This document shows, one piece after another, positions 1 to 16,944 of a DNA stretch of 19,632 bases (position 1 is its first letter; every line of letters begins with the position of its first letter). The notes under the pieces were generated by a model, which made no database searches, was not told the DNA's origin, and saw only the letters and a program-made list of their open reading frames with translations. The stretch is from assembly GCA_001799195.1 (NCBI GenBank), contig MGSU01000002.1, forward strand, positions 1 to 19,632, given 5' to 3'. Made by a program: the position numbers and the translations under genes. The DNA comes from Deltaproteobacteria bacterium RIFOXYA12_FULL_61_11. GTDB lineage: Bacteria > Bdellovibrionota_F > JAHFAK01 > YA12-FULL-61-11.

Positions 1-378
1 GAGGAGCTGGTCGAGGGGAAATTTTTGGGACATTTCCAAAAAGCCCAGGAGGACCAGGTGATCGAGCTCGGCTCCCTCGAGGGTGGGACAACATAGTCGG
101 CGCCGCAATCGGCTGAGCATCGGATAGTAGGCCAGGCACAACGCCGTGCTCCAGAACCCGCCGGGATGACGGCGATACTCGAGCAGGAGAATGCGCGACA
201 AGACCTCCCGTTCGGTCCAGCTTGCTTCGTCTTCCTGACGCAAAGCCAAGAGCACGGCCTGGATGGAGGAATAATTCTTGAGACAGGAATAGCGCTGCTG
301 CGCCTCGGTATAGGGCAAGGGCGACCGAGCGGCAAGGTCTTGACGCAGAGAGGTGAAGAGGGTTTGCAGGGTGGTCAT
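1..378 (-). CDS. Partial unknown protein, weakly sigma-factor-like (3' end off the left edge)
   Basis: This frame is not closed inside the window. Reading the minus strand from the ATG at 378, it stays open for 126 codons to the left edge. The protein begins MTTLQTLFTSLRQDLA and is Leu/Arg-rich. A stretch around residues 80-120 (AYYPMLSRLRRRL, then AELDHLVLLGFLE) has the spacing and hydrophobic pattern of sigma-70 region 2 (core-binding helix followed by a D-L-x-x-x-G-x-L segment). That is only a pattern resemblance; no promoter-recognition region is visible. The start overlaps the stop of the upstream resolvase gene as ATGA, so it is the last visible member of the replication operon and probably translationally coupled. 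A G-run seven bases upstream could act as ribosome binding site. It could be an element-encoded sigma-like regulator or an unrelated helical protein. Confidence 0.6.
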   Translation of the reverse strand, partial: MTTLQTLFTSLRQDLAARSPLPYTEAQQRYSCLKNYSSIQAVLLALRQEDEASWTEREVLSRILLLEYRRHPGGFWSTALCLAYYPMLSRLRRRLCCPTLEGAELDHLVLLGFLEMSQKFPLDQLL

Positions 379-713
379 GATTGAACCCCCCGCCACCATT
401 CGGCCACAAGCTTTAAAAAGTCCTCAAGCTCCATGGCCACGAGAGCGGGCTTGTGATCGTCTTTGCACACCGCCAGCGGCCAGCGACCTTGGGGCGCAGT
501 TTTTCGGGCTTGTTCTAAGGCCGCGCGAACGCTGACGCGGTGATGGTGTTTGGCCTCCAACCAGAAGCAGGGCAGTTCCACGTCCGGAACTTCCTTTCCG
601 GAGCGGTACTGCAGTCCGCGTTTAATCACAGCCTCAGGCATGGCCTGGCGGAAACGATGGACCAGCTCGCGTTCGAACTGCTGGCCTTTCCTGCGGGAAT
701 GGGCGCCGCTCAT
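375..713 (-). CDS. Hjc-like PD-(D/E)XK nuclease, probable Holliday junction resolvase
   Basis: 112 aa, the usual size of archaeal Hjc-type and phage PD-(D/E)XK resolvases. The order of motifs fits: a basic N-terminus, an early glutamate pair (FERE, residues 13-16), then RSGKEVPDV with Asp44, then WLEAKHHH with Glu53-x-Lys55, then a helix ending with a Gln-containing VRAALEQA segment. In this family Asp44, Glu53 and Lys55 would bind the metal and catalyse phosphodiester cleavage. The likely role is resolving branched recombination or replication intermediates of the element. Its ATG overlaps the stop of the RecB-like gene (ATGA) and its stop overlaps the start of the next gene (ATGA). It could instead be a general structure-specific endonuclease; assignment to the nuclease fold is firmer than the choice of substrate. 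Confidence 0.8.
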   Translation of the reverse strand: MSGAHSRRKGQQFERELVHRFRQAMPEAVIKRGLQYRSGKEVPDVELPCFWLEAKHHHRVSVRAALEQARKTAPQGRWPLAVCKDDHKPALVAMELEDFLKLVAEWWRGVQS

Positions 714-1879
714 GTAGGCACCTCCTTGGCCCAGAATCTTGGCACATAGGTCTTGTGGGCTCCGGCCTCCAGCTCGAGCTTGAGCAAGGTGGAGCGGTTT
801 TTGTCGTTCTTGCCCAAACTCTTCACAAGGCCCTCCAGGGCCTTGTTGTCGATGACCGCCACCTCTGCCAGGAGATCTTCTCTCGGGCGCCCTGTCGTGG
901 CCGCCAGGCGCTCCAGCGTGGCATTGAGCGGATAGTCCAGCCGGGTAGCGTTGAACAGGCGATACTGCACTCCGCCGAGAACCAACTCGTCCTGCTCCTG
1001 GAGCTGGGCCTTGAGGATTTTTTCCAGCTCTTCCTTGCGGGCATAGAGGATCTTGGCCAGGCGAGCCACCTCCTCACGTTCTCTGGCCACGGCCTCGAGG
1101 TCGTTGAGGTCGGTGCAAAGGAACTCCCTCTTGCCTTTCAGCGCCTCGGTATAGGCCGGACACTGACGGACGTGATCGCAAAAGTTGCAATTCGTATTGA
1201 GCCGGGGCGGGAACTCTTTCGCTTCCTCTGTCTGCCGGCCCAGGGTCTCGACGTAGGCCAGGGCAGCTTGTAGTTGCTCGGGCGTTCTCTGCGTGTCTTG
1301 TTTCAACCCGTGCCGCAGCATCCAGTACGACAGCTTGATCCGCTTGGCCCAGGGCCAGTGTTGCTGAGCGGCGAGCTGGTACAGACTGAGCTGCAGGTTG
1401 TTGTCCAACTCGTCGCGGTTGAAGAGCTGGCGGTTGGTCTTGTAGTCGACGATTTCGATGGTTTCAAGGTCGAGGTAATTGACCCGGTCGATGTAGCCGA
1501 GCACGGTGAACGGACCGACCTGGAGATGGAATTCTCGCTCGACGGCCAGAACATCGCGGTGCTCGACCACCCCCTGGTCACGAACGAAACGTTGTACAAG
1601 CTCGAACCCTTCCTGGAAGAGCTCAATACCGGTGAGGTTTTCGGCTTTCCAGGCCTCGCGATAGAGGGTCAGAGCCCGAGCTTCGGAAAGAGGTCCATCC
1701 TGCTCCTGGTCGACGGCTTCCCGCACCAGACACTCGAGGACGGCATGGATGATTTTGCCAAAGCGCAGGGCTGGACCGGGTTCGGCCTTGTGTTTGTCGA
1801 GATAGTGGAGCTGGTACGATAGTGGACATGTTTCAAAACGGCTCAGGCGGCTGAACGACAGATGGTCATTGCGGCTCAT
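710..1879 (-). CDS. RecB/Cas4-family PD-(D/E)XK nuclease with Fe-S cluster motif
   Basis: 389 aa. The first ~245 residues read as a RecB-family nuclease domain (PF12705-like): LSFSRLSRFETCPLSY at the N-terminus, His45 (FGKIIHAVLE), Asp131 in GYIDRV, Asp145-Tyr-Lys147 in IVDYKTN, and the QLSLYQLA helix at 163-170. Four cysteines (Cys18, Cys231, Cys234, Cys240) have the one-plus-three spacing of the 4Fe-4S staple seen in AddB and Cas4. No helicase motifs are present, so it is a stand-alone exonuclease-like protein. The last ~140 residues hold a charged, probably coiled-coil stretch (EREEVARLAKILYARKEELE) and a tail I cannot assign. The start is supported by AGGAGG just upstream and lies 14 bp inside the end of the Cys-rich gene. 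It probably processes DNA ends during element replication or recombination. Confidence 0.85.
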   Translation of the reverse strand: MSRNDHLSFSRLSRFETCPLSYQLHYLDKHKAEPGPALRFGKIIHAVLECLVREAVDQEQDGPLSEARALTLYREAWKAENLTGIELFQEGFELVQRFVRDQGVVEHRDVLAVEREFHLQVGPFTVLGYIDRVNYLDLETIEIVDYKTNRQLFNRDELDNNLQLSLYQLAAQQHWPWAKRIKLSYWMLRHGLKQDTQRTPEQLQAALAYVETLGRQTEEAKEFPPRLNTNCNFCDHVRQCPAYTEALKGKREFLCTDLNDLEAVAREREEVARLAKILYARKEELEKILKAQLQEQDELVLGGVQYRLFNATRLDYPLNATLERLAATTGRPREDLLAEVAVIDNKALEGLVKSLGKNDKNRSTLLKLELEAGAHKTYVPRFWAKEVPT

Positions 1880-2543
1880 GGGAACCTCCTGTGGGATTGA
1901 GGGAATCGGACCGGCAAAAATCGAGGGCGATGAGTTTGGCCCCGGGAAAGGCCTCGAGCAGCAGGCAGAAAGCGACCAGATCCTCGACCGTGAGCTCCTG
2001 CCGGGGTTTTTGGGTCAGTTTGGGTACGAGCCAGAGTTCGCCCAGCTCCGGTGAGCGGAAGCAGAACTCGACCTTGCGTTGTTTGAAATACTCTTTGCCT
2101 TCGGGGGTCAAAAGACTCGCCGCCAACGGCGGCAGGGTGAGCGGAGTGGGGCCATCGGCACCTTGTTGGACCAGTGGTTTTACGGGTGCTGTCTGCTTCT
2201 CCTCGGGCAGGGGGTGACCAAAGAGATCGGTGGGCACGGCCGCCGAGGGCGGCGGGGCCTTTTCCGAAGCAGGGAAGGCGCCATTTGTTACCGGTACCGA
2301 GGCAGGAGCATCCGAGAATGGTGTTACAGCTTGCTCAGGCTGCTCGGGAACGCGAGGTTCGAACTTGGGCACAGGGTGTCCGTTGGCTCGGAGCCATTCG
2401 TAGCACATGAAAACCTCTTCCCTGGCACAGGCACCTCCCTCGAGGTAGTACTGACAGCGTTTATCCTCACCCTGGAGGTAATAGGGGCAGGTGTAGGGTG
2501 ATGAAGAGGTGGTTGGTTTTTGAAAACGGTCGGAGAGCTTCAT
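1866..2543 (-). CDS. Unknown Cys-rich protein, possible metal or Fe-S binding
   Basis: 225 aa from the ATG at 2543, preceded by AGAGGC; a longer in-frame start 23 codons upstream lacks such support and adds an unlikely Cys-rich leader. The N-terminal ~50 residues contain four cysteines (19, 30, 39, 47; spacing Cx10Cx8Cx7C) among aromatic residues (CPYYLQG, CQYYLEGGAC, MCYEWL), suggesting a small zinc or Fe-S module. A Pro/Ala-rich linker (~55-140) follows, then a compact C-terminal domain (~145-215; VEFCFRSPELGELWLV, LIALDFCRSD). I do not recognise the family. It is the first gene after the non-coding AT-rich gap and overlaps the RecB-like nuclease gene by 14 bp, so it may be its partner or regulator, but that rests only on position. 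Confidence 0.7.
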   Translation of the reverse strand: MKLSDRFQKPTTSSSPYTCPYYLQGEDKRCQYYLEGGACAREEVFMCYEWLRANGHPVPKFEPRVPEQPEQAVTPFSDAPASVPVTNGAFPASEKAPPPSAAVPTDLFGHPLPEEKQTAPVKPLVQQGADGPTPLTLPPLAASLLTPEGKEYFKQRKVEFCFRSPELGELWLVPKLTQKPRQELTVEDLVAFCLLLEAFPGAKLIALDFCRSDSLNPTGGSHEPQ

Positions 2544-2657
2544 CGATTGCCTCTTTGGATAAATTTTGTGAACTTGCCCCCCCAAAAGGCAGGTTTTTGT
2601 GCAAGTGCACACCTAGGTGAATCGGGGTCTCGGCTTAGTCTCGCAACGGTTTGGTGG

Positions 2658-2820
2658 TCAAGATCACAAGAACACAGCTTTTTGCGTGAAGAGCCCTGTG
2701 TAGAGTATAAAAAAATATATTTATTTATTTCCCGCTTTCCGCGTCTTGCTCGGGAAAAATATTTCAAATTTCTCTTATATATATACCTACAAATGCAAAT
2801 ATGTGATCTTGTGATCTTGA
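2658..2820. repeat. Perfect 14-bp inverted repeat around the AT-rich core
   Basis: The left arm at 2658-2671 (TCAAGATCACAAGA) and the right arm at 2807-2820 (TCTTGTGATCTTGA) are exact reverse complements, 135 bp apart. The right arm also contains part of a GTGATCTT direct repeat (2803-2810, 2811-2818), so the same half-site occurs three times. The spacing suggests binding sites for a protein that loops or melts the AT-rich DNA between them, rather than an RNA hairpin. Confidence 0.7.
2704..2709 (-). promoter_or_regulatory. Possible -10 box for the Cys-rich gene, RecB-like and resolvase genes
   Basis: On the minus strand TATACT lies about 160 bp upstream of the Cys-rich gene's ATG, within an A/T-rich stretch that could act as an UP element. 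The -35 position at 17-bp spacing (GGAAAT) does not resemble TTGACA, so this is a weak call. A promoter here would let the four downstream genes be expressed separately from the primase block. Confidence 0.25.
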
Positions 2821-2861
2821 AAACCAACCTGAAGAAACCTTTGAAGAAAGGGGAAAAAAAG

Positions 2862-2897
2862 CTGTGAATTTGACTGTGCGCTTGACTGTGCACTTGT
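2862..2897. repeat. Three 12-bp tandem repeats (iteron-like)
   Basis: Units are CTGTGAATTTGA (2862-2873), CTGTGCGCTTGA (2874-2885) and CTGTGCACTTGT (2886-2897), head to tail without gaps. The third unit contains TGTGCACTTG, whose reverse complement sits at 2602-2611 on the far side of the AT-rich core. Short tandem repeats beside an AT-rich segment resemble initiator-binding iterons. They lie just beyond the primase stop codon. Confidence 0.6.
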
Positions 2898-2909
2898 GTA
2901 GGCCTCCCG

Positions 2910-5900
2910 TTAATCGCGCGTATTCCAGTTTCGCAGAGCCTCCCGCGATCCTCCCCAGGTTCGCACGATGCCTTGAGGAAACGTCTCGACATCGAGAAAC
3001 GTCGAGGCTTGTTCCAGATCGAGGGCAATGGTTCGTACACGGCGTTCTCCCATGGCTACGATTTTTCCCAAGTCCTTCACGTACCCCTCTCGCTGATGGT
3101 TCTCGCGGAGCATTCGTTTGAGAGCCCGAAGCATGCTCGCATCGACGTGTTGGCCGATCCGCTGTTGGTGTTCGAGAAACACCTCCCAACAGGAACGCAG
3201 ATGCAGGCAGGTCAGCCCTGTTACCAGCGCCCAGTGACGGTTTTCGACAAGCCCCCCGTTGAAGGCGAGCACCGAGCAGGTCTCGATGAACAGGTCGAGG
3301 GGGCTTTTGGCCCCCTGCTCTCCGTCCATCAGATCGGTAATCGATGCTGACAGCGCCGCCTCTACATCGAGTTCAGGGAGACCGTTTACCCCCATGGTTG
3401 CGGCAAAAGTCTCGAACATGGTCAGGCCCAAGACGATGACCCTCAAATTGTCCCGATAGCGCTGGGAGATTTTTGTTCCCCCGGGAATTCGCTGCAGCAC
3501 CTGGTCGGTGATCCGGGTAGCGAGTTCCAGATCCGTCGGGGTATCACGGGCCAGAGCAAAGCGAATGTAGGGTACGGCCAGAAAGGAGAGCTCATAGGTT
3601 TCGAGACGGCGGAAGGCCGCCACAGACTCAGGACTCGTCTTGAGGGTATTCGGATCAGGGGTGACCGAGACCAGCCGATCCACGAGAGCCGGATCATCGG
3701 TACGACCCTCACCACCGATACACACCGGTGCGGATAAACGGAAAGAAACCACGCTCAGGTCGTTCCGACCACGTCGTTCGAATTCCCCGCAGTAGATAGA
3801 CCGCAGCATACGATGCAACGTATGTAACTCCCGCGGCGACATATCGCTGGAGCGGTACTCGTCGAGAAAAATCGGGATGCTGTTGGTCGCGGACAGGAGT
3901 TTTATGAGAGCAAATTTGGTCTGGGTGACGCTGAAGGAATCGAGTTGCTCGGCCGACTTCCCCCCGAGCAAGCGCCAGAAGACATCCTTGATCAGAGAGG
4001 TTTTGCCACTGCCTTGAGTGCCCCAGATCCAGAGTATGGGAAAATGCTTGAGGATCTGCATGATCCTCGGCTTGAAGGGGGTGGCAAAAAACCAGCCGAG
4101 TACCGGCAACACCACCGAGGGAAGATTGACCTTCAAAAGGTCGGGCAAAGCCTGTGCAGCGAGCTCCCGGCAGACGGCAGCCTCAGCGAGGGGATAGTGC
4201 AGCGCTTCGATAAAACCCAACTCCTGACCGACCAGAACGAGATCACTTCCAGTCACGGGGCCATCGGGGCCGAGCACATGCTGGGGAGTAACCCAACGAG
4301 GACCTGCCGGGGTATCAGTGTAACCAACCACCTCCAGGCCGGTTTTTACCGGTACCTGCCGGGCGGAGAGGATGCGTAAAAGGCCCTGAACATTATCGTC
4401 GGATCCGGTCCACTGTAAGTCGGCATTGGGAAGGTTTTGGACAAAACTGCGCTTCGAATGCCATGAAGAGGGTGAAAAACGAAGGTTCTGATAGCTTTGT
4501 CCGCGTTCGGTGGTCACGTTGCCGACGATGATTTCGCCGGCTTCGAGGCGTATGCGTTCGGTGGGTTCGAGGTGGAAGGACGAGATGATGATCACCTCGC
4601 CATCGCGTCCTTTGACATAATAATGATCCTGATCTTCAAAAACCTCTCCTCTCAGGACCTCGCCTACAGAGTGCTCCTCTTTTCTCTCCGGTGCTGGGAC
4701 CACCGGCATGGCTTCGCGGAGCATGGCCTTGATGATGCGCCGGCCGATCTTGAAGCGCTGGGTGAGGAGGTCGATATACACGTCCTGTTCGAGCGTAGAT
4801 CGCCGAGCCAGGAGGTCCAACAGTGGGCGGAGGTGTTGACCGAGTTCGAACTTCGGAGTGTCGGCAGGAATGGCTTCCAGCAAACAGTCGAGATAACGCC
4901 GAGCTTTGGCGAGGATAATCCGTAGGGCTTCAGGAGGGTTGGATTTGAGAAACTCATTGAGATCGACCTTGACCACATCCTCAGGACGAGGCAGCTCGGC
5001 TATTCTGACCTCTCTGCCCTCGGCAAAGAGAGCGGCGGCAGTTTCCAAGGCGCCGACGGCGCCGGCTCCGCTCAGCTCGGCATCGTTGCAGATGATGATG
5101 CGCTTGGTATTCCGGGTAAGCTGGAGCAGCTTTTCAACATCCTGCTTACGAAACCTCGTAGTAACCGGCGAGATACAGGGGATGTCGGCCTGCATGGCGC
5201 TGATGCAATCGGTCACCCCCTCGGTGATGAGCAGTTCTTCAGTGCCGCGGGCTGCATCCTCATTGTAAAAATAGTCGTTCCCTACGACCGGTGAGACATA
5301 GCTGTGGCGCTCCGAGTGAGTAAGAAGCTTTTTATACTTGGATTTTTCCCACTCCTCGTCGCCGGTATACTCGGTTGCCCGGGCGATGAAATAGACCACT
5401 TGGCCACATTTCCAGTACGGGAAGACCAGTCGGTCGCGAAAGAAATCCTCGACCCGGCCTCCGCCGAGTACGACAAACAGCCCGGTCTTGAGTGCCAGGT
5501 CGCGCTCGACCTTCAGTTCTTCCAAAAAATAGTGAAAAAGATGCCCGTCGGCCCAGCCAAGCTGAAGTACATCAATGGTCTGATCAGAAAAACCATAGTG
5601 CTCGTGATACCAGGCTTGGCGAATGCGGGTTGGCAGGAGGCGATGAAAATAGCCGGCCGCCTGGGTGAGTAACCGTTCGAGGTTCCTACGTTCGACCAGC
5701 CGCTCGAGCTCTTGGCGAAAGGCCTCGTTGTCTTGATCAGGTCTCTTGACCCCACGCTGTTCGGCAAGGGTATAAAGAGCTTCCTTGAAACCGAGCTGAT
5801 CACGCTGCTGGACATAGGCAAAAACATCTCCGCCAAGTCCGCCACCATTCGAAAAATCGTACCAGGACTGGTTATGGGGCCAGACCACGAAGGACGGCGT

Positions 5901-6029
5901 TTTCTCGGGGTGGAAAGGAGAAAGCCCCTTGAGCGTCGTGCCAGAGGGGCGAAGTTCTACGTCGGCACCGATGATCGAGACAAGGTCCGCCACAGAACGC
6001 ACCTCTTCGATGAAGGTACGAAACGTCAT
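2910..6029 (-). CDS. Primase-helicase: DnaG-like TOPRIM primase fused to AAA+ ATPase
   Basis: 1039 aa. Residues ~1-95 align by eye with the DnaG CHC2 zinc domain (LKGLSPFHPEKTPSF, GGDVFAYV), but three of four zinc ligands are missing: Ser37, His40, then YDFSNGGG in place of YxCFxCG. Residues ~100-260 fit the primase core (FRDRLVFPYWKCG at 196-209), followed by TOPRIM with Glu270 (LLITEGVTD) and Asp316 (CNDAELSGAG). The C-terminal part is an AAA+/DUF927-like helicase: Walker A GTQGSGKT at 670-677, Walker B IPIFLDE at 718-724, and an Arg-containing segment GRTDDPALVDRLVS. The protein would synthesise primers and unwind the fork for the element. Its ATG overlaps the stop of the 85-aa gene (ATGA), and the non-coding candidate origin lies directly after its stop. 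Confidence 0.88.
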   Translation of the reverse strand: MTFRTFIEEVRSVADLVSIIGADVELRPSGTTLKGLSPFHPEKTPSFVVWPHNQSWYDFSNGGGLGGDVFAYVQQRDQLGFKEALYTLAEQRGVKRPDQDNEAFRQELERLVERRNLERLLTQAAGYFHRLLPTRIRQAWYHEHYGFSDQTIDVLQLGWADGHLFHYFLEELKVERDLALKTGLFVVLGGGRVEDFFRDRLVFPYWKCGQVVYFIARATEYTGDEEWEKSKYKKLLTHSERHSYVSPVVGNDYFYNEDAARGTEELLITEGVTDCISAMQADIPCISPVTTRFRKQDVEKLLQLTRNTKRIIICNDAELSGAGAVGALETAAALFAEGREVRIAELPRPEDVVKVDLNEFLKSNPPEALRIILAKARRYLDCLLEAIPADTPKFELGQHLRPLLDLLARRSTLEQDVYIDLLTQRFKIGRRIIKAMLREAMPVVPAPERKEEHSVGEVLRGEVFEDQDHYYVKGRDGEVIIISSFHLEPTERIRLEAGEIIVGNVTTERGQSYQNLRFSPSSWHSKRSFVQNLPNADLQWTGSDDNVQGLLRILSARQVPVKTGLEVVGYTDTPAGPRWVTPQHVLGPDGPVTGSDLVLVGQELGFIEALHYPLAEAAVCRELAAQALPDLLKVNLPSVVLPVLGWFFATPFKPRIMQILKHFPILWIWGTQGSGKTSLIKDVFWRLLGGKSAEQLDSFSVTQTKFALIKLLSATNSIPIFLDEYRSSDMSPRELHTLHRMLRSIYCGEFERRGRNDLSVVSFRLSAPVCIGGEGRTDDPALVDRLVSVTPDPNTLKTSPESVAAFRRLETYELSFLAVPYIRFALARDTPTDLELATRITDQVLQRIPGGTKISQRYRDNLRVIVLGLTMFETFAATMGVNGLPELDVEAALSASITDLMDGEQGAKSPLDLFIETCSVLAFNGGLVENRHWALVTGLTCLHLRSCWEVFLEHQQRIGQHVDASMLRALKRMLRENHQREGYVKDLGKIVAMGERRVRTIALDLEQASTFLDVETFPQGIVRTWGGSREALRNWNTRD

Positions 6030-6283
6030 GAAACCTCCTCGACTTCATCGTTGATGGACTGGTCGAACTTGCGAGCACTGGTGGTCAGTCGGGCGAGCCG
6101 TTGTCGAAATCGGACAAAAGCTTCCAAGTCCGGAAACTCGAGTTCAACCGTGACCCCGCCCTCCTCGATGCAGAGAGTGGGAAAATCACCTTCCCAGGGG
6201 GTCAGCGTAACGACCGGGTCCTGGAGTGAAACCGTGGTTTTCATCAGACCGAGTTCCAGTGCGGGGATAAGGCGAGGTTTCAT
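6026..6283 (-). CDS. Small unknown protein between helicase and primase genes
   Basis: 85 aa, not recognised. It starts MKPRLIPALELGLMKTTVSL and has an acidic strand-rich middle (VTLTPWEGDFPTLCIEEGGVTVELEFPDLEAF) followed by a basic helix and an acidic tail (NDEVEEVS). A second Met at residue 14 is an alternative start, but the first Met overlaps the stop of the SF2 helicase gene as ATGA, and its own stop overlaps the primase start as ATGA. That chain of couplings favours the long form and suggests the product is made in step with the two enzymes, possibly as an accessory or loader protein; this is inference from position only. Confidence 0.7.
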   Translation of the reverse strand: MKPRLIPALELGLMKTTVSLQDPVVTLTPWEGDFPTLCIEEGGVTVELEFPDLEAFVRFRQRLARLTTSARKFDQSINDEVEEVS

Positions 6284-7629
6284 GTCGTCAGTTGCCGATA
6301 GATCCGACGGCGTTCCTGATACTGCCTAGCCAGGGAAGGAACCGAGAGATCGACCAGATCGTAGAGAATCGCTTCCTGCTTGTCGGGATGGGGCCGCATC
6401 AAGCGGCCGAGACGTTGCGCGGTGCGGCCTCTGGTCCGACCTGGATAGGCCAGAATGATACGATCGAGACGAGGGATATCGAGACCTTCGTCTGCCAAGG
6501 TCGAGGCCACAACCACCCTCAACATCCCGCTGCGCAGATTATTGAGAATTTTTTGCCGATCCAATTTCTTGACGTCCCCAACCAGTACTTCGCAAGGAAC
6601 CTCACGGATCATCCGGACAAGCTTTCGGCAGTGTTTGACCCGCCCCGAAAGTACGAGCACCGAATGCCCCTCTCGAGCCTCCCGGGTAGCCAGTCCGGCA
6701 ATAAGCTCATTCCGTTCGGGATCTTCGATCAATTCCTTCATGCAGGCGTGATAGTCTTGGGAATCACTTGAGAAATCCGTAAAGATGGGTCGAACGGTAG
6801 GTATTTGAAGAAAGCCTTGGGCTACGAGCTGAGCGGTGGTGGTTTCCCACAGCAGTTCTCCCAAGGTGAAAGAGAGCAGCGGAGTGAGCCCATCCTCCCG
6901 GTACGGGGTTGCTGTAAGGCCAAAGCGATATTTTGCCGGAAGTCGGCTGAGTACCTGTTGAAAGGTACTGGCAGGGGTATGTTGAGCTTCATCAACGAGG
7001 ACACAGCCGAAACGTGCAGCCAGAGTATCGAGTTTCACAGGTGGTAGGCGCACCAGAGACTGGACCGTGGCCAGGGTGATGGCCGAGGGGGCACAGCATC
7101 CCTCGGTTACTACCCCAGGTTCGAAGCCATAGATCAGCGTGATCGTATTGTGCCACTGTTGGAGAAGATCGAGGGTATGAACAAGAATCAGTGTTGGTTG
7201 GTCGAGAACAGCAAGAGCCGCCGTCCCGATGATACTCTTTCCCCCACCGCAAGGTAGAACCACGAATCCCTGCACTCCACTTCGCATCCTCTCGATGACG
7301 TTGACCTGATACGGCCGCAGCTCGACCTTGGCACGAAGGCCGACCGCGGGATGGGAACAGCGACGGTCTTCGAACTCGACCGAGAGGCCGCCTTCCTGCA
7401 ATCGTTTCCGCAAGAGCAGCACTGCACCACGGGGAAGCTCGACCCAACCGTCGTCGCGTTCGACCAGACACTCGATCCGCTCCGGAATACCCTTGACCCT
7501 CCGTCCCATTCTCCGACACGAAAGGTAGATCGGGTTCGGGAAAGACAGCTCGCGCTTGAGACCTTCCAGCACCTTGGAAGGACATGCTGTGGAAGGAAAG
7601 GTGATGGTTCCAGCAACGATTGCTCGCAT
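6280..7629 (-). CDS. SF2 DEAD/DEAH-type DNA helicase (XPB/UvsW-like)
   Basis: 449 aa from the ATG at 7629, which overlaps the stop of the DinG-like gene as TGATG; a longer in-frame reading inside that gene is a shadow. Motifs run in SF2 order: LRPYQ (104-108), Walker A PCGGGKS (126-132), DEAQH (213-217), LTATPYRED (from 238), a motif V-like STLADEGLDIP, and motif VI QRLGRLMRP near residue 400. The DEAQH box and the LRPYQ start resemble XPB-type and phage UvsW-type ResIII helicases, which remodel branched DNA. An unassigned N-terminal ~100 residues (PNPIYLSCRRMGRRVKGIP) could be a damage-recognition or DNA-binding domain. It is encoded next to a second, different helicase, suggesting a division of labour in fork processing. 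Confidence 0.87.
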   Translation of the reverse strand: MRAIVAGTITFPSTACPSKVLEGLKRELSFPNPIYLSCRRMGRRVKGIPERIECLVERDDGWVELPRGAVLLLRKRLQEGGLSVEFEDRRCSHPAVGLRAKVELRPYQVNVIERMRSGVQGFVVLPCGGGKSIIGTAALAVLDQPTLILVHTLDLLQQWHNTITLIYGFEPGVVTEGCCAPSAITLATVQSLVRLPPVKLDTLAARFGCVLVDEAQHTPASTFQQVLSRLPAKYRFGLTATPYREDGLTPLLSFTLGELLWETTTAQLVAQGFLQIPTVRPIFTDFSSDSQDYHACMKELIEDPERNELIAGLATREAREGHSVLVLSGRVKHCRKLVRMIREVPCEVLVGDVKKLDRQKILNNLRSGMLRVVVASTLADEGLDIPRLDRIILAYPGRTRGRTAQRLGRLMRPHPDKQEAILYDLVDLSVPSLARQYQERRRIYRQLTT

Positions 7630-9536
7630 CAGGCCCCCCCTTCGAGAAAACAGCGGACATTGGCAAGGTGACGGCTCTTGAGGATCGGAGGAAGACTTGC
7701 GGTGAACACTCGGCCATAAGGTTTGCTGATCAGTCGGCGATCCAGAACTACCACCACGCCATGATCGGCGGTGCTGCGAATCAGCCGGCCAAAGCCCTGT
7801 TTGAAGGCGAGTACCGCCCGAGGGAGGCTGTAGTGTGTGAACCACTGACGATCCCGTTCGCTGATCGCATCGAGCACAGGATCCTCGGGGGAGGGAAAGG
7901 GTAATCGATCGATGACAACACAGGAGAGGGTTTGACCCGGAACATCAATTCCGGTCCAGAAGGACTCGGTGCCCAGTAATACCGAACTCACATCCTTGCG
8001 GAATTCCTCAACCAGTGCGGTTCGCGGCAAATCCCCCTGCCGTAGTACCCGATATCCGCACGATCGAATTCGTTCGTACACTGCATTGAGATTACGATAG
8101 GAAGTAAAAAGACCCAGGGTGCGACCCTCGGCCAATTCGAGAATGTCGGCAAAGATATGTGCGACGGTTGCCGGAAAGGCGGGATCATTCGGTTCCGGCA
8201 GATCTTCGGGAACTACGAGCAAGGCCTGTTGCAGAAAATCGAAGGGGCTGTCCACCACAAGTTCGCGGCAGGCAGGTATTCCAAGTTCTTCGCGTAGGTG
8301 CTCGAACGAACCCCCGGTGCTGAGGGTGGCCGAAGTGGCGATGACGGTGTCGGTTGCGTCAAATAGGTTCTGCCGGAGCCGCTCGGCGACGGAGATCGGT
8401 TTTGCACACAGGACAAGATTTTTCCGGGTATCTTCCTCGAGGAAAGTGACCATTGCTGGGTCTGCCAGGGTGAGCGCTGCTTGGAGTTGGGTGGCCAAGC
8501 GGTAACAGCGAACCGCAGCATGTTTCAACTCGGCTCGCAGGTCAGTTTCAGAAGTGGTGGTGGCGGCTTCGTTGTAAACGGTACGCACCTCGCCGAGGAG
8601 ACAAACAAGATCCTCCCAGGGCACGATGTCGGGGGTTCGCAAACGGATCCGATAGGCCGGCGATTTGCGGTGTTTGGCCAGCAAGGTGAAAAGCTGTTCG
8701 GCTTCGCGCATCACCTGCTCATGAAAGGTTTTTTCACCGAGGTGGAGGAGAAGGCGGAGAACCGAGCGATAGGAACCCTGGGTGAGGCGAAAACCGAAAA
8801 AATCTCGGGCGATATCGGCAGCCTTGTGGGCTTCGTCGAGAATGGCTACCTCGAAGGGGGGAAGGATGAGATCCTGTTCCGTATTTTCTCGAACCTGGAG
8901 GTGAGCGAAGAGTAGGTGATAATTACAGACGACGAGATCGGCCTCCTTGGCTGCAGCTCTGGCTTTGTAACCACAACAGTCCTCGCGAAAGCTGCAGTCG
9001 TTTTTCTTGCATTCCTCCGAGGTTGTCGAAAAACGGCGCCACAGTCGATACGGTGGTTCAAAGGGCAGTTCACTGACATCTCCCAACTTCGTACGGCGCG
9101 CCCAGGAAATGATTGTTTGGAGCTTGGTAACATCTTCAGGTTCCTCGAGATAGTCGAGGGTGCCCTGGGCTTCTTCCTGATAAAATTTGTTGTAACAGAG
9201 ATAATTATTTCTGCCTTTGAGAAGTGCGGAGGTGAAATCCCAGGGGAGAAGGTCAGCGAGCAGCGGTAGGTCTTTTTCCACGAGCTGTTCTTGGAGTGCG
9301 ATGCTCGAGGTCACGAGGAGGATTCGTTTTCCTCTTTGTGCTGCGTGGTAGATCGCCGGTACCGAGTAGCCGATACTTTTGCCCGTACCGGTTGGAGCCT
9401 CGACCAAGAGGTGCTCTTTGTTACCAATAGCTTCGTCCACTGCTTGGGCCAGTTCGAGCTGACCGGGGCGTGGAACGTAGTCTTCGAAGTATCTGGAGAG
9501 GAGGCCTCCTTGCCCGAACACCTGATTGATATCCAT
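7629..9536 (-). CDS. DinG/XPD-family Fe-S DNA helicase
   Basis: 635 aa from the ATG at 9536, which has GAGAGG five bases upstream; a TTG start ten codons earlier lacks such a site. Walker A is EAPTGTGKS (46-54). Four cysteines at 114, 176, 181 and 187 fit the Fe-S cluster domain of the XPD/DinG family. The DEAH box is at 234-237, followed by SATLS, a TESFWTGIDVPG segment and GFGRLIRS near the C-terminus. There is no N-terminal exonuclease domain, so it resembles E. coli DinG/YoaA rather than the Gram-positive exonuclease fusion. These enzymes unwind 5'-3', including R-loops and forked DNA. Its stop overlaps the SF2 helicase start, while 138 bp separate its start from the SSB gene. Confidence 0.9.
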   Translation of the reverse strand: MDINQVFGQGGLLSRYFEDYVPRPGQLELAQAVDEAIGNKEHLLVEAPTGTGKSIGYSVPAIYHAAQRGKRILLVTSSIALQEQLVEKDLPLLADLLPWDFTSALLKGRNNYLCYNKFYQEEAQGTLDYLEEPEDVTKLQTIISWARRTKLGDVSELPFEPPYRLWRRFSTTSEECKKNDCSFREDCCGYKARAAAKEADLVVCNYHLLFAHLQVRENTEQDLILPPFEVAILDEAHKAADIARDFFGFRLTQGSYRSVLRLLLHLGEKTFHEQVMREAEQLFTLLAKHRKSPAYRIRLRTPDIVPWEDLVCLLGEVRTVYNEAATTTSETDLRAELKHAAVRCYRLATQLQAALTLADPAMVTFLEEDTRKNLVLCAKPISVAERLRQNLFDATDTVIATSATLSTGGSFEHLREELGIPACRELVVDSPFDFLQQALLVVPEDLPEPNDPAFPATVAHIFADILELAEGRTLGLFTSYRNLNAVYERIRSCGYRVLRQGDLPRTALVEEFRKDVSSVLLGTESFWTGIDVPGQTLSCVVIDRLPFPSPEDPVLDAISERDRQWFTHYSLPRAVLAFKQGFGRLIRSTADHGVVVVLDRRLISKPYGRVFTASLPPILKSRHLANVRCFLEGGA

Positions 9537-9566
9537 AGTCCTCTCGCCTTGACCGGTAAAAGACAA

Positions 9567-9669
9567 CTCGAGCGCTCAGCACCGAGTCCGACCACCGGTG
9601 ACTCCGCTTCGCGGCCATCATGGGGCTCAAGGCCTCCCGGTCTGTCGAACCCGGCACTGAACGCTCGAG
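9567..9669. repeat. Long-range imperfect inverted repeat upstream of the DinG-like gene
   Basis: CTCGAGCGCTCAG (9567-9579) pairs with CTGAACGCTCGAG (9657-9669), 12 of 13 positions, across a 77-bp loop. It fills most of the gap between the SSB-like stop (9675) and the DinG-like start (9536). It may be an operator, a processing hairpin or an attenuator that lets SSB be made in excess over the helicases. No T-run follows, so it is not a clear terminator. Confidence 0.4.
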
Positions 9670-9674
9670 AGGTT

Positions 9675-10391
9675 TTAGGCGAAGGGATCCACTTCGCCCT
9701 TGGATTCGGCCTGAGTATGGCAATACTTTGCTTCAAGTCTCTCGATGAAAGTGTTTGCCACTTGCTCTTGGGATGCTTTCACCTCACGGACCCGAGAAAT
9801 GCCGAATTTCTCGAGAAATACATCAACGGCTTCTCTTGGCAGAGCCTTGAGCCGGCTGACGAACTGGCTCGCAGTGCGAGCCTCGATGGTCTCACCTTTG
9901 TCATACGTGTTGAAATCACTCCCTCCAGAAACGCTTTTGGCCAGATCGTGCAGTTTCAGAGCACCGATTTCTTTGATTTGTTCCGCAGAGAGTTTTTCCT
10001 CAGGAAGAAGAGAATATGTTGTTTTCGCATTGCCAGAGTCACCATGTCTCTCGACCTCAAACATCCAGGTTGTGAGACCATATTTGTCTCGAGCTTTGAG
10101 CAAGTCTTTGAACCAAATGGTGCCGCCTTCGATGATCTTTAATTCCTTCTCGACCGGGAGGTAGAAGTTCATCAACACGCGCAAGTTCGGGCGTTTGCCC
10201 TCTTTGCAATAACTGCAGCCAGTTCCGATACACTCTTCGTAACGCTCGCCGGTCCAGTGTGTTTCGCGGGCGAACGGCTCGCCGACAAAAACACCGACGA
10301 CCTTGTCGCGATCATTGGCCAGGCGCACGAACAGGCCATTATTGCTGTTGGAGTGCTTGTCGGCTAATCCTTGTGCATGATCCCAACTCAT
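9675..10391 (-). CDS. gp32-like single-stranded DNA-binding protein
   Basis: 238 aa, ATG at 10391 with GGAGG seven bases upstream. The N-terminal two thirds look like the phage gp32-type OB-fold family: FVRLANDRDKVVGVFVGEP, a probable zinc site from His45 and Cys54, Cys59 and Cys62 (ECIGTGCSYC), RPNLRVLMNFYLP, IWFKDLLKARDKYGLTTWMFEVERHGD, then SLLPEEKLS. The protein ends GEVDPFA, an acidic tip ending in Asp-Pro-Phe like the tails by which SSB proteins recruit partners. It would coat single strands during element replication and recombination. It lies second in the operon, upstream of both helicases and the primase, and ends 138 bp before the DinG-like gene. I do not use a gene symbol because the family has several names. 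Confidence 0.78.
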   Translation of the reverse strand: MSWDHAQGLADKHSNSNNGLFVRLANDRDKVVGVFVGEPFARETHWTGERYEECIGTGCSYCKEGKRPNLRVLMNFYLPVEKELKIIEGGTIWFKDLLKARDKYGLTTWMFEVERHGDSGNAKTTYSLLPEEKLSAEQIKEIGALKLHDLAKSVSGGSDFNTYDKGETIEARTASQFVSRLKALPREAVDVFLEKFGISRVREVKASQEQVANTFIERLEAKYCHTQAESKGEVDPFA

Positions 10392-10410
10392 TGTATACCT
10401 CCAGAAAGTA

Positions 10411-10698
10411 TCAGTTCACTACTGTGGAGAGCGAGGTGGTATCCTCGCGGTTACCTTTGTAAATGGTGGTTGTTTCCGTCTTCATAAACGGTTGGACCAG
10501 GAACGAGATTGCTTGGGCAGTTTCTCGAGCGTGTTCTCGGTCGAGGTTGTCTTCCTTCACTTGCCGTTCCTGGGCCACTTCTCTGCGGGCACGGGCAATC
10601 AATAGATCTGCAAGGCTTTCGGCGAGTGCCTCGAGAACTTGGTGATCTGCTTCAAGTTCCGGCTCACGAAGAATTTCAAAGAAAAGGTCCTGCCTCAC
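10411..10698 (-). CDS. Small unknown helical protein, first gene of the minus-strand operon
   Basis: 95 aa from a GTG at 10698, preceded by AAAGG eight bases upstream. The frame extends further 5' to an ATG at 10908, but the added residues (LLLLCNIQFCLCLFHHF, SRRRR) look non-coding and cover the repeat region, so I prefer the GTG. The product is strongly helical and charged (VLEALAESLADLLIARARREVAQERQ, split here only to show its character) and ends in a Thr-rich tail (MKTETTTIYKG). No family recognised. It sits 19 bp upstream of the SSB-like gene and directly next to the 21-bp repeats, which would suit a small DNA-binding or adaptor protein, but nothing in the sequence proves this. Confidence 0.55.
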   Translation of the reverse strand: MRQDLFFEILREPELEADHQVLEALAESLADLLIARARREVAQERQVKEDNLDREHARETAQAISFLVQPFMKTETTTIYKGNREDTTSLSTVVN

Positions 10699-10881
10699 GT
10701 TTTGACCTTTGAAGTTCCTGCTGCCTGCCCTACGTCGGCGGCTCGGTGCGGCCCACGAGCACAAGAGATGCCAAATACGAAAGTGGTGAAATAAACACAG
10801 ACAAAACTGTATGTTGCACAGCAATAGAAGGTGGTTCTTTACTGGTCCCATCATTTCTGAGCCGTTCAAATCGAGCGAAGC

Positions 10882-10986
10882 GGTCAGCCGGAGCGGTTGT
10901 ACGGTCAATCGGAGCGATCATCTGGTCAATGGGATCGGTGCCTTGGTCAATGGGATCGGATACATGGTCAGTTGGATCGATAATGG
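10882..10986. repeat. Five 21-bp tandem repeats (iterons)
   Basis: Units start at 10882, 10903, 10924, 10945 and 10966, each 21 bp and each beginning GGTCA. The shared core is close to GGTCAATnGGATCG, with the last seven bases variable. A diverged partial copy precedes them (GTTCAAATCGAGCGA, 10864-10878) and another (GAACGGAGCGGTTCT) follows at about 10993-11007. The 21-bp period equals two helical turns, placing all sites on one face of the DNA, as in plasmid origin iterons that bind a Rep initiator. They could also be operator sites for the divergent promoters or accessory sites for the integrase. Confidence 0.75.
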
Positions 10987-11158
10987 CACGCAGAACGGAG
11001 CGGTTCTTATGGTTCTTTCTTTGGGTTTGACACTACATCCATGGTTCTTGAAAAGATGCTCAGGACCAAGCCCCATAAAGCTTTTCAACGGAGCAGAAGC
11101 GACTTGATCTCAACGCGCCAATGAAGGTACAGGTAATGCAGTATGGACCAGCATAGGG

Positions 11159-11189
11159 CCTTGTTGGCCAGCGATAAAAAGCAACAAGG
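11159..11189 (+). promoter_or_regulatory. Hairpin overlapping the integrase ribosome binding site
   Basis: CCTTGTTG (11159-11166) and CAACAAGG (11182-11189) form a perfect 8-bp stem with a 15-base loop. The right arm runs into AAGGGGGT, the ribosome binding site just before the integrase ATG at 11198. Folding of the mRNA would partly hide this site, so translation could be kept low until the stem is opened. Structure is read from sequence; the regulatory role is inference. Confidence 0.4.
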
Positions 11190-11197
11190 GGGTAAGT

Positions 11198-13315
11198 ATG
11201 CCATCGGTTGTCAGTTATTGCCGTGTATCGTCTGATGAGCAGGCGCACAAGGATCTCTCGATCCCTGCTCAACGTAAGGCGCTCCTGCGTTGGATCGAAG
11301 AACGAGAAGACTATGAACTCGCAGAAGAGTTCGTCGACGAGGGAGAATCCGCCTATGCTCCTGCCAACAAACGGCCAGGCTTTTGCCGGATGATCTCTTT
11401 CTGCCGCAAGCAACCAGTGAACTTCATCTTGGTACACAAGCTCGATCGTTTCTCACGCAATCGCGAGGAGTCGATCCTCTTCAAGTCACTCTTGCGGAAA
11501 CATGGGGTTATTGTAAAATCCATCACTGAAAACTTCGACCCCGAGACCCCTCAAGGCTTTTTGTATGAAGGGATGATCGAGGTTATCAATCAATTTTACT
11601 CGATGAACCTGGCTACTGAAACCTTGAAGGGTATGCGGGAAAATGCCGAACGTGGTTACCTCAACGGAGGTAGCGTACCGTATGGCTATCGTCGTGAGCG
11701 CATACCCGATGCATCGGGCCGCGAACACAGCAAATATGTTCTGGGACCGGAAGCGGAAGTGGCCACGGTGCGGGAGATCTTCCGGCTCGCAGTCGAGGAA
11801 AACCACGGTGCAAATGCCATCAGCAAGATCCTGAACCGGCAAGGCATTCCTGCTCCTCGCACGCAGCACTGGAATCACTCGAGTGTCGGTGTCATTCTCA
11901 ACAACACCGTTTACATCGGTGATAGTGTTTGGAACAAACGTTCTGCAAAGAAGAACAATACCAGCAACCTGGTCATCATCAATGCAACTCACGAACCAAT
12001 CATTGATCGTGCTCTCTTTCTGAAAAGGAAAGAACTGGCAAGCCAGCGGCCCTTCAATCAGCGCAGTAGCCCTCGGCGCGCTGTGAGGTACCTCCTGTCC
12101 CGATTGATCCGCTGTGATCATTGCGGAGGGCTTTTCATCGGGAGGCGTTATAAGTATTTCAGTAAAAAGAAGAAAGAATCGTACGATCGGTTTCGATACT
12201 ACTGTGACACTCGCATCACGAAGGGCAAATCAATCTGCCCCGCTCCCGGGCTCAATAGCGATTGGATCGAAGGCAAGATCCTAGAACTCATCTACAACGA
12301 GATCTGCTCCCCTCAACGTATTGCCGTTCTGAAAGAATTGGTAAGCAAGAAGATCGAAGCCCGTCGAAGTCGCTATGGTAAAAACCCTCGCGAGCTCGAT
12401 CGAAAACTGTCCGACTTGAACCGACGTATCCAAAACTACTACCAAGCCATCGGTGACGGGGTTGATCCGAAGACGTGCAAAGAGCATATCGCCCGCCTCG
12501 AAGTCGAGAAGAACGAGGTCGAATTAGAAGCCAAGATCCTCCAGCAGGATGACTACTACCGCCGCGCCCTGGAGTTGAACCTTGTGGAACTCGAACGCTT
12601 TGCCATCGCCTTCAAAGAGGATTTTTACCGGTTGCCTCTCACCGCCCAACGCAATGTGCTCCTACACTTCGTCAAAGAGATAAGAGTGTTCAAGAACAAG
12701 ATCGTACGGGTCACCTTGAGAGTTCCCTTCAATGGCAACGGGGTTCGCCATCTCACCGATGAACTGCGGGCGCCTTCGGACGAAGAACAAACCGCTCAGA
12801 GCACAATGGAGGTTTTACTTCCAGGACCAACACGGGCTAACATGGTCCATAAGGAGGAGGTCCCAAATGATCTTCCAGAACCAGCACGGGGAGCCAAGCA
12901 TACCCTGGGCACTTCGCCGCCCAGTTTGGTTTACAGGAAGCCCGTCCGCGCCAAGCGGGTGGGTTTTCTCGTTTCTGGGCAAGGAGTTGCAGACCTGCGC
13001 GAATTCCGCCCGGCCGCAACCTCGCCCGTGGGACTCTCGGTTCAGAAGCTGGTGCAGGGCCTGGAGGCTACTTCAGACGGGCGGCTCGCTTGGCGATCGC
13101 CTTGCGGATCTTTTCGTAGCTTGGCGGCGGACCCTTCTGGAGGTCCTTGCCGTCCACGAGAATCGCATCGGCGATGCCCCACTCAACCACAGCGTCTCGC
13201 GTCGAGGTGTCGATTTCGCGGAAGGCGACCTTGTCACCGAACTCGGCCGCCGCGCGCTTGGCTCGCTCGTAGACCAGGTTCTGTGCCAGGCACCATCCGC
13301 TCGAAAAGGCCGTGA
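11198..13315 (+). CDS. Large serine recombinase (integrase) with read-through or rearranged C-terminus
   Basis: 705 aa; ATG at 11198 after AAGGGGG. The catalytic domain has Arg9 and nucleophile Ser11 (YCRVSSDEQ), SIPAQRKAL, and KLDRFSRN (81-88). The recombinase domain begins near 160 (PYGYRRERIP), then a zinc ribbon with Cys306, Cys309, Cys336 and Cys347, and a probable coiled coil (~370-480). Such enzymes cut and exchange attP and attB in a directional reaction. Up to about residue 565 the composition is protein-like; after LPEPARGAKH the frame becomes Pro/Arg-rich, and from 13,068 it lies antisense to the acetyltransferase gene. The native C-terminus therefore seems lost or fused at a junction near 12,900. 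Members of this family commonly end at 450-600 aa. It is transcribed away from the replication operon. Confidence 0.85.
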   Translation: MPSVVSYCRVSSDEQAHKDLSIPAQRKALLRWIEEREDYELAEEFVDEGESAYAPANKRPGFCRMISFCRKQPVNFILVHKLDRFSRNREESILFKSLLRKHGVIVKSITENFDPETPQGFLYEGMIEVINQFYSMNLATETLKGMRENAERGYLNGGSVPYGYRRERIPDASGREHSKYVLGPEAEVATVREIFRLAVEENHGANAISKILNRQGIPAPRTQHWNHSSVGVILNNTVYIGDSVWNKRSAKKNNTSNLVIINATHEPIIDRALFLKRKELASQRPFNQRSSPRRAVRYLLSRLIRCDHCGGLFIGRRYKYFSKKKKESYDRFRYYCDTRITKGKSICPAPGLNSDWIEGKILELIYNEICSPQRIAVLKELVSKKIEARRSRYGKNPRELDRKLSDLNRRIQNYYQAIGDGVDPKTCKEHIARLEVEKNEVELEAKILQQDDYYRRALELNLVELERFAIAFKEDFYRLPLTAQRNVLLHFVKEIRVFKNKIVRVTLRVPFNGNGVRHLTDELRAPSDEEQTAQSTMEVLLPGPTRANMVHKEEVPNDLPEPARGAKHTLGTSPPSLVYRKPVRAKRVGFLVSGQGVADLREFRPAATSPVGLSVQKLVQGLEATSDGRLAWRSPCGSFRSLAADPSGGPCRPRESHRRCPTQPQRLASRCRFRGRRPCHRTRPPRAWLARRPGSVPGTIRSKRP
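12819..12890. repeat. 18-bp direct repeat pair near the integrase 3' end
   Basis: TTCCAGGACCAACACGGG (12819-12836) recurs as TTCCAGAACCAGCACGGG (12873-12890), 16 of 18 identical, offset 54 bp. The first copy overlaps a short dyad, GGACCA (12824-12829) with TGGTCC (12843-12848). The pair lies where the integrase frame stops looking like protein, so it could be part of an attachment site or binding sites for the integrase. Coding-level duplication is an alternative. Confidence 0.45.
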
Positions 13316-13859
13316 GGTTCACCTTACCGGGGATCGGCTCCAACCGCTTGCCGGTCTTTGGGAGCCAGCGAGGCGGCTTCGCGTCGTCGGTGAAGGGCTT
13401 CCAGAGCAGCACCGCGATGCCCTGGCGATCTGCCTTGTGATAGCCGTGCTTCTTGAACCAGGAGGCCTTCATCCAGAAGGGGAGCCAGACGCCCCAGGCG
13501 ACCATGCCCTTAGCTCCGCGCCGCCGCGCATCATCCTCGGCTGCAGCGAGCAGCGCCGTGCCCATCCCATGCCCCTGGAAGTTGCCGCGGCCTCGCTTGT
13601 AGCCATGAACGTGGATGCAGTAGACGAAGTAGAGCCCCTCGCCGCCCACGTTCGAGTGCTCGATCGGCCCGTACTGGATCATCCCGCCCTCGACCCCTGT
13701 GTCATCGAGGGCCAGTTTTGCCTGCAGCCCGTGGCACGTCTGAGCGCGGTCCAACCACTCGCGGCGCTTGGGCCCCGCCTCCTTGGCGTCGTCTGACCAG
13801 TCCTCGAGGCATAGGCAGAACAGATCCTTTTTGTCATCCGGCAGGTCGATGACCTTCAT
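13068..13859 (-). CDS. GNAT N-acetyltransferase with C-terminal thioredoxin/YoaP-like domain
   Basis: 263 aa from the ATG at 13859; AAAGGAG lies about ten bases upstream, and a GTG seven codons earlier overlaps that site and is rejected. The GNAT fold covers ~1-155, with the acetyl-CoA loop QGHGMGTALL at 95-104, a following helix (AAAEDDARRRGAKG) and WFKKHGYHK near 134-142. From ~170 a second domain (LTAFSSGWCLAQNLVYERAK) has Cys190 and a thioredoxin-like βαβ pattern ending in ILVDGKDLQKGP, as in YoaP-type fusions. Substrate cannot be read from sequence. It appears to be host DNA; its 3' end overlaps the integrase read-through by 248 bp on the opposite strand. Confidence 0.82.
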   Translation of the reverse strand: MKVIDLPDDKKDLFCLCLEDWSDDAKEAGPKRREWLDRAQTCHGLQAKLALDDTGVEGGMIQYGPIEHSNVGGEGLYFVYCIHVHGYKRGRGNFQGHGMGTALLAAAEDDARRRGAKGMVAWGVWLPFWMKASWFKKHGYHKADRQGIAVLLWKPFTDDAKPPRWLPKTGKRLEPIPGKVNLTAFSSGWCLAQNLVYERAKRAAAEFGDKVAFREIDTSTRDAVVEWGIADAILVDGKDLQKGPPPSYEKIRKAIAKRAARLK

Positions 13860-13939
13860 GATTCTTGTGCTCCTTTCCACTGCTCATCCATCAGCTTCGC
13901 GATGAACTCGGCCATCACCACTTCCGCTGCCTTCGACAC
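13856..13939 (-). CDS. Possible 3' remnant or micro-ORF upstream of the acetyltransferase
   Basis: A 27-codon frame from GTG at 13939 (VSKAAEVVMAEFIAKLMDEQ...) ends with TGA overlapping the acetyltransferase start as ATGA. The reading is amphipathic and protein-like. In frame upstream it soon meets a stop, so this is either a leader peptide that couples translation or the end of a decayed gene. Support is thin: there is no clear ribosome binding site. Confidence 0.22.
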   Translation of the reverse strand: MSKAAEVVMAEFIAKLMDEQWKGAQES

Positions 13940-14202
13940 GATGCACCATTGTGGAGGTCGCTGACCTGCTCAGTTCCTACACGGTGCATTTGTGCGCCAT
14001 GGTCCCAATTACTAGCGTAAAAAGCGACCATTTGCTAGTAATACTGTCGGAGCGTGACGAAGAGAGGAAGATCCTTAAAAGATCCTCAGCTGTATGGATC
14101 GAAGTCCGTCTTTGGATACTGTTGGTGACTGCAGCGGCCTCGTTGCTCGAGCGATACGAATGCGCTAGGCTTGCACAACCCCTTGGGGTAGAGGAGAGAA
14201 AC
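13940..14202. promoter_or_regulatory. Divergent intergenic region with 9-bp inverted repeat
   Basis: Between the acetyltransferase side and the secreted β-barrel gene. ATTACTAGC (14008-14016) and GCTAGTAAT (14034-14042) are exact inverted repeats, 17 bases apart, an operator-like arrangement. TAATAC at 14038-14043 could serve as a -10 box but no good -35 is seen. A plus-strand frame from 13951 reads in frame into the downstream gene but has no ribosome binding site and is taken as non-coding. Confidence 0.35.
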
Positions 14203-15213
14203 ATGCTGAGCCGCGGGTTGTGGAGTTGGATTGGGGTGCTTCTCTTATCGTCGGGCTTGGCCTCGGCAGACCTGATCGAGGTTGTCGGCGGGGTGCAGGT
14301 CGAGGGAGAGGTCTTGGCCCTGACCAATCGCGGAGTCGAGTACGATCCGACAGGAGAGGTGACCTTCTACGTCATTCCCTGGCACGATCTCGTCGCTGTC
14401 CGCTATGCTGACGGCCGAGCGGTACACTGCGAGCGGCGAGCCCCCAACGCAGGACCATCCGCCGGCAGCGACCTGATCGAGGTTCGCGACGGCAGTCTGG
14501 TACAGGGGCTTGTCCTGCGGGTCATCGCCGAGGGAGTCGAATACGATCCAGCGGGTGAGCTAACCTTCTACGTCATCCCCTGGCACGACATACTCACCGT
14601 GCGTTACGCTGATGGCAAGACTCTCCTTTTTGATCGTCTCGCGCAGAGGGCGAACCCAGCCCCTACCCAACCCGTGGCTGCCGCAGCACCGGCGGTGCCG
14701 AAAACACCCGCCGAACCGGTCCGGTTGCGCGATACCTTGGGTCTGGAAGCCATGTTCGGTTGGAACTCCTCGGTCGGCGGGGGGGTGTTGCTCGATCTGG
14801 GGTTGTGGGACCATCTCCAACTAGCCGCTGGTCTGGGCACGGGGATGTGGGGTTTGCGCGCCACCGGTCTAACGCGCTTGTTCTTCCGCCGCCAACCCTA
14901 TGGTGCGGCACTGGGGTTTGGTTACACCTACAATGGTGGGGGCGACACGACGGTCGAATCGACCGTGGACGATCAGAACGCAACATCGAACTACACCTTC
15001 GATCCGGTCGGCACGCTGAACGTCTTCTTCCACTATGCCATTGACACCAATCCCACGTATACCGCCCGACTCTTCTTCGAGGTCGGCTATGCCTTCCGAT
15101 TTGGAGAAGCCGGGTATCAACTTCTCCATGGCGAAGCGTTGGACGACGAGGTCACCTTCATGCAGCCGGGTGGGGTGATCCTGGCCGCGGGTTTCGGGCT
15201 GGGACTCCTCTGA
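14203..15213 (+). CDS. Secreted outer-membrane β-barrel-like protein with duplicated N-terminal unit
   Basis: 336 aa; ATG at 14203 with GAGGAG eight bases upstream. Residues 1-22 form a signal peptide (WIGVLLLSSGLASA, cleavage before Asp23). Two copies of a ~56-aa unit follow, beginning at Asp23 and Asp90 (67-residue offset), each with DLIEV, GVEYDP, FYVIPWHD and VRYADG. An Ala/Pro linker (~150-172) leads to a Gly- and aromatic-rich C-terminal half with alternating strands (GGGVLLDLGLWDHLQLAAGL, GAALGFGYTYNG, ARLFFEVGYAF), typical of a small outer-membrane barrel. No enzyme motif is seen; a structural or binding role in the envelope is likely. Its stop at 15213 directly abuts the argS stop on the other strand. 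Confidence 0.75.
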   Translation: MLSRGLWSWIGVLLLSSGLASADLIEVVGGVQVEGEVLALTNRGVEYDPTGEVTFYVIPWHDLVAVRYADGRAVHCERRAPNAGPSAGSDLIEVRDGSLVQGLVLRVIAEGVEYDPAGELTFYVIPWHDILTVRYADGKTLLFDRLAQRANPAPTQPVAAAAPAVPKTPAEPVRLRDTLGLEAMFGWNSSVGGGVLLDLGLWDHLQLAAGLGTGMWGLRATGLTRLFFRRQPYGAALGFGYTYNGGGDTTVESTVDDQNATSNYTFDPVGTLNVFFHYAIDTNPTYTARLFFEVGYAFRFGEAGYQLLHGEALDDEVTFMQPGGVILAAGFGLGLL

Positions 15214-16917: not shown

Positions 16918-16944
16918 GCAGGTATCCTAATGAAATCGCTGCGA

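Follow-up and report, generated by a model that had tools for sequence, protein, structure and literature searches.

A replication and recombination gene block beside a large serine recombinase, very probably one arm of an integrated tailed phage related to Mx alpha

The DNA analyzed here (the window) comprises bases 1–19,632 of a 34,669-base contig, C2, from a fragmented MAG of 4.64 Mb (342 contigs, 87% complete); the genomes compared included two of the host phylum, the source MAG being one of them. Position 1 of the window is the end of the contig and not a natural end of the element that it carries. A preliminary description had named a single-stranded DNA-binding protein (SSB), two helicases, a primase-helicase, a nuclease, a resolvase and a divergent large serine recombinase (LSR), and profile searches confirmed all of these between 1 and 12.8 kb. 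The features are as follows.

1–399, minus strand: phrog_36246 ORF (start at 399 or 378), of which the window has the 5′ part; it runs off the contig end and continues in frame on contig C135 (L028:1-504), just before small-terminase-like genes
375–713, minus strand: Hjc-like PD-(D/E)XK Holliday-junction resolvase (phrog_244, 5e-19)
710–1879, minus strand: RecB/Cas4-type exonuclease (PDDEXK_1, 8e-35; phrog_69, 3e-42; Cas4 profiles)
1866–2543, minus strand: Cys-rich protein (zf), kept directly before the exonuclease in relatives
2556–2909, no strand: AT-rich intergenic stretch between the two operon halves (primase and Cys-rich genes), with short direct repeats CACAGTCAA
2910–6029, minus strand: primase-helicase with CHC2 zinc finger, DnaG-type core, TOPRIM and AAA-type C-terminal half (profile matches)
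6026–6283, minus strand: 85-aa ORF (orf85), kept in L003 (58%)
6280–7629, minus strand: XPB-like superfamily 2 helicase (ResIII, Helicase_C, ERCC3_RAD25_C; phrog_16, 5e-75)
7629–9536, minus strand: DinG-like helicase (Helicase_C_2, 1e-38; nearest solved structure, E. coli DinG)
9675–10391, minus strand: gp32-like SSB with a DPF C-terminal tip (phrog_14578, 1e-13)
10873–10977, no strand: five 21-nt iteron-like direct repeats between SSB and LSR, a candidate replication origin or regulator-binding array
11198–12800, plus strand: LSR (integrase), its frame open on to 13315
12790–12900, no strand: inferred right prophage/host junction (att), from the end of LSR homology, a GC step and an imperfect 19-nt direct repeat (12818–12836 and 12872–12890)
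13068–13880, minus strand: GNAT acetyltransferase, host flank (profile match)
15214–16917, minus strand: arginyl-tRNA synthetase (ArgRS), host flank (profile match)

Within the ArgRS gene, a tRNA-Asn was called at 15348–15419, probably in error. Gene families, gene order, overlaps, contig continuity and the composition boundary were all observed directly.

As transcribed, the minus-strand genes run SSB, DinG, XPB, the 85-aa ORF, primase-helicase, Cys-rich protein, exonuclease, resolvase and the cut phrog_36246 ORF. Most of them are indeed joined by ATGA/TGATG overlaps, as had been claimed: there are six such junctions, one of the TGATG type (DinG/XPB) and five of the ATGA type (XPB/orf85, orf85/primase, zf/exonuclease, exonuclease/resolvase and resolvase/next ORF). 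Gaps separate SSB from DinG (138 nt) and the primase from the Cys-rich gene (about 366 nt). We infer that this operon is an early replication and recombination arm.

The structure model of the SSB aligned with the gp32 core at Z 9.4 (VIA; 131–142 aligned residues), and Foldseek returned nothing under 1e-3. Its top Foldseek row was a structure of the phiC31 integrase-directionality factor (9teh_I, E 1.3e-3). A relationship to that factor, gp3, was considered and set aside as a weak lead without sequence support: the hhalign probability was 0.4 and the PHROGs differ. The primase-helicase matched CHC2 (5e-19), DNAG_N (7e-7) and Toprim_2 (6e-6), while its AAA-type C-terminal half matched the phage primases phrog_1139 and phrog_16345; overall, it is 57% identical to its counterpart in L003, an element in a Zodletone Deltaproteobacteria MAG. 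Homologues of the Cys-rich protein, 32–34% identical, occupy the same place in L003, L043–L047 and L122. The exonuclease has four cysteines positioned as in Fe-S nucleases. Residues E14, D44, E53 and K55 of the resolvase (E, D, ExK) were invariant in an alignment of eight relatives; its AlphaFold model (pLDDT 51) was too poor for use. A sigma-factor identity for phrog_36246 was rejected, as Pfam lent it no support. No gene for a DNA polymerase turned up in the portions of the element seen, and a host polymerase would therefore be needed.

The LSR gene is divergent from the block and lies at its right edge, beside chromosomal genes. Its domains occur in the order Resolvase (6e-30), Recombinase (5e-22) and Zn_ribbon_recom (2e-10), and the protein matched phrog_95 at 1e-104. 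Near 12.8 kb, the GC content steps from about 0.51–0.53 to about 0.60–0.63, marking the right edge of the block. Homology to phage LSRs stops near residue 503–544, and the frame continues through host-like DNA to 13315. The 3′ end of the LSR gene is the probable location of attP, and integration would then swap the C-terminus of the enzyme. The matching att site suggested in the preliminary description was looked for and not found: in the contigs searched, the 19-nt repeat matched at no more than two places, each with one mismatch, and the control strand gave the same number.

For the iteron-like array between the SSB and LSR genes, the lag-21 autocorrelation was higher than in any of 1000 resamples drawn from a first-order Markov model of the sequence. 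A 21/42-nt repeat array stands at the same place, before the SSB gene, in L003, and none of this type was detected in L100, L101 or L105, viral loci considered below. The repeats may mark an origin or a regulatory site. The array and the LSR frame running into host-like DNA are new details of this locus.

What lies beyond the left end of the window? Elsewhere in the MAG, its first 25 bases have a single further match, which lies at the tip of contig C135. The overlap between this contig and C2 is exact and 48 bases long (window 1–48), and the cut ORF continues in frame across the join. C135 encodes two small-terminase-like proteins (TerS; phrog_32085), a tyrosine recombinase (Yrec), the large terminase subunit (TerL; Terminase_6N and 6C; phrog_22646, 7e-138), an AbiEi/AbiEii pair, a TOTE-type primase-helicase and the start of a weakly DUF2924-like ORF. 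The terminase genes are transcribed in the same direction as the window block. No contig in the MAG overlaps the far end of C135.

These data bear on the nature of the element. The preliminary description had offered two readings, an integrative, self-replicating element or the replication arm of an unusual phage, and had noted that no capsid, portal or tail gene is visible. That absence is due to the cut at the contig end; leftward extension, which it had proposed as a check, supplied terminase genes. A non-viral integrative element (an ICE, IME or integrative plasmid) using a borrowed phage module to replicate once excised might draw on the lack of virion genes in the window itself, on the use of LSRs by ICEs as well and on iterons, which are typical of plasmids. 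This reading is largely refuted by C135 with its codirectional terminase genes. A 95.6-kb relative, moreover, has a portal and a capsid gene, and the scanned ORFs of the window, C135 and C110 (a contig discussed below) include no relaxase or type IV secretion gene. We consider it very improbable. The phage reading is the one that stood: the block is, with high confidence, the LSR-side arm of a temperate tailed phage that is integrated here and related to Mx alpha. Mx alpha is a prophage of M. xanthus of about 80–100 kb, found in tandem copies and encoding SitA toxins; its specialized transducing particles have been reported to lack tails and to measure about 35 nm (PMC6070905), or to be defective (PMC5562445).

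Relatives were sought among viral contigs. TerL and DinG queries gave relatives, and primase and LSR queries gave no matches. The C135 TerL retrieved 60 loci in IMG/VR, five of which (L043–L047) have the order zf, exonuclease, resolvase, phrog_36246, TerS, Yrec (on the opposite strand), TerL. These five are 85–88% identical over 1.7 kb to loci of named Myxococcus genomes and, judging from this DNA identity rather than from a named record, are presumably Mx alpha itself. The window element has both the gene order of the packaging module and the TerL clade of the Mx alpha group.

The DinG query revealed the same replication block in L100, L101 and L105 and in part in L107, in addition to L003. 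L101 is carried by the 95.6-kb IMG/VR contig 3300050821_003950 (G099), on which the genes follow the order SSB-DinG-XPB-primase-zf-exonuclease-TerS-like-Yrec/TerL-portal-capsid. Because this one contig carries the whole order, the linkage of block to virion genes is independent of the join between C2 and C135. About 6 kb upstream of its SSB gene, L100 encodes homologues (37–39%) of two tail proteins of C15, another contig of the MAG; an integration site between tail end and replication block would be expected to bring the two side by side in this way. The preliminary description had held the combination of helicases and primase to be unusual. Uncommon it is: at the sensitivity used, the set of XPB, DinG and TOPRIM-AAA primase was absent from the isolate phages searched. 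It is not unique, as it is also present in a small number of uncultured phage contigs and in one MAG. The gene set is a recurring phage module and no new kind of mobile element.

Could the block instead be a chromosomal DNA-repair or defence island that is not mobile at all? PADLOC labels the DinG protein typeIV_DinG and the exonuclease Cas4-like. Against this stand the LSR and GC boundary, the synteny with phage contigs and the continuation into terminase genes; nor are there csf genes among the scanned genes of the window. We regard such an island as scarcely credible. The same gene order fixed at one chromosomal place without an integrase, the finding named earlier as contrary to mobility, was not seen; the relatives have other neighbouring sequences and are located in viral contigs. 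A type IV(-A) CRISPR assignment of the helicase as CasDinG was rejected, given the lack of csf genes among those scanned and DinG-profile scores of 226 bits for E. coli DinG vs. 50 bits for CasDinG.

Virion genes are present elsewhere in the MAG. Queries with proteins of related viral contigs found two portals (Phage_portal; C189 and C110) and two major capsid proteins (Phage_capsid, HK97-type; C110 and C305). There are also two TerL genes, on C135 and C189, which are 78% identical to each other. The GC content is 0.69 for C189 and C305, 0.62 for C110 and 0.59 for C135. Because C189 holds the TerL and portal of another prophage, C110, with the second portal and a capsid gene, was assigned by elimination to the prophage of the window. 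C15 encodes a tail sheath and ORFs resembling tail tube, baseplate and fibre proteins, and it could belong to the second prophage of the MAG rather than to that of the window. The placements of C110, C305 and C15 rest on homology, GC content and elimination, without overlap.

The second related prophage, C189 plus C305 (L094, L096; GC 0.69), has a different replication arm, and two co-resident related prophages recall the multiple units of Mx alpha. At L095:3861-7859, a 1332-aa ORF joins stretches of a D12 adenine methyltransferase to an XkdF-type prohead protease.

The stretch from TerL to portal resembles a cargo slot. At L028:4811-9021, on C135, it holds the AbiE pair and the TOTE-type primase-helicase; other genes fill it in L044, L045, L038 and L030, and the cargo differed in each relative examined. 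In L030 (8499-14732), the slot is occupied by an array of 26 tRNA genes with a 522-aa ORF within it.

A defective prophage or a phage-derived gene-transfer unit, as Mx alpha has been described, kept for its cargo, would differ from our preferred explanation only in functionality. The AbiE and TOTE genes between TerL and the end of C135 are in keeping with this alternative, as are the reports of defective or tail-less Mx alpha particles and the Mx alpha-type packaging module of the element. Conversely, the scanned genes are open frames, and a contractile-tail module exists both in the MAG and in a Myxococcus relative: the related Myxococcus-type prophage that we examined has tail sheath, tube, tape measure and baseplate genes. 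We judge loss of function to be possible but rather unlikely.

For a functional temperate phage, the gene families allow a course of events to be proposed. The LSR would insert the phage into the host chromosome beside the GNAT gene. After excision, the divergent early operon would make a phage replisome, with the gp32-like SSB and a primase-helicase that, from its family, probably opens and primes the DNA at or near the iteron array. The DinG and XPB helicases may remodel forks or junctions, and the Cas4/RecB-like exonuclease and Hjc-like resolvase may process recombination intermediates ahead of packaging. Transcription would next enter TerS-TerL, the cargo gap, portal, capsid and contractile tail.

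A seemingly odd mobile element thus becomes a placed prophage with a link to the Mx alpha elements, the carriers of the kin-discrimination toxins of Myxococcus (PMC5562445). The comparison also suggests that the Mx alpha group encodes contractile-tail genes and a TerL-portal cargo slot, though Mx alpha particles have been described as tail-less. The conserved DinG-XPB-primase block is a candidate phage replication system for study. More broadly, we see about an even chance that there is a wide, mostly unsampled group of temperate contractile-tailed phages in Myxococcota and one or more poorly sampled phyla, with a common Mx alpha packaging core and swapped replication modules, one of them an iteron-associated replisome of primase-helicase, XPB and DinG.

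How does the element compare with known systems? Its LSR gene would work like the int/attP region of Mx8, in which attP is located inside int, at its 3′ end, so that integration replaces that end of the gene and alters the C-terminus (PMC6070905); Mx8 is of a separate phage group, and the window enzyme, a large serine recombinase, would undergo a comparable exchange. G099 has the entire order from SSB to capsid on a single contig, but protein identity is 25–56%, and further genes stand between its DinG and XPB genes and between its exonuclease and TerL genes. L003 shares LSR-SSB-DinG-XPB-orf85-primase-zf-exonuclease at 34–63% identity, whereas its LSR is only 26% identical. It has a RuvC-like resolvase (L003:15265-15786) where the window has the Hjc-like one, which suggests module exchange. 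Finally, the Mx alpha-type prophages (L043–L047 and the Myxococcus loci L004–L007) differ from the element in that their LSR is only 23–24% identical, the Myxococcus loci lack nearby DinG and XPB genes, the C-terminal half of the primase is not recognizably related and the cargo is different. They have in common with it the SSB, the DnaG-like half of the primase, the packaging gene order given above and cargo between TerL and portal. Their TerL proteins are 72–78% identical to that of the element, which is thus a prophage of a tailed-phage group common to Myxococcus and another phylum.
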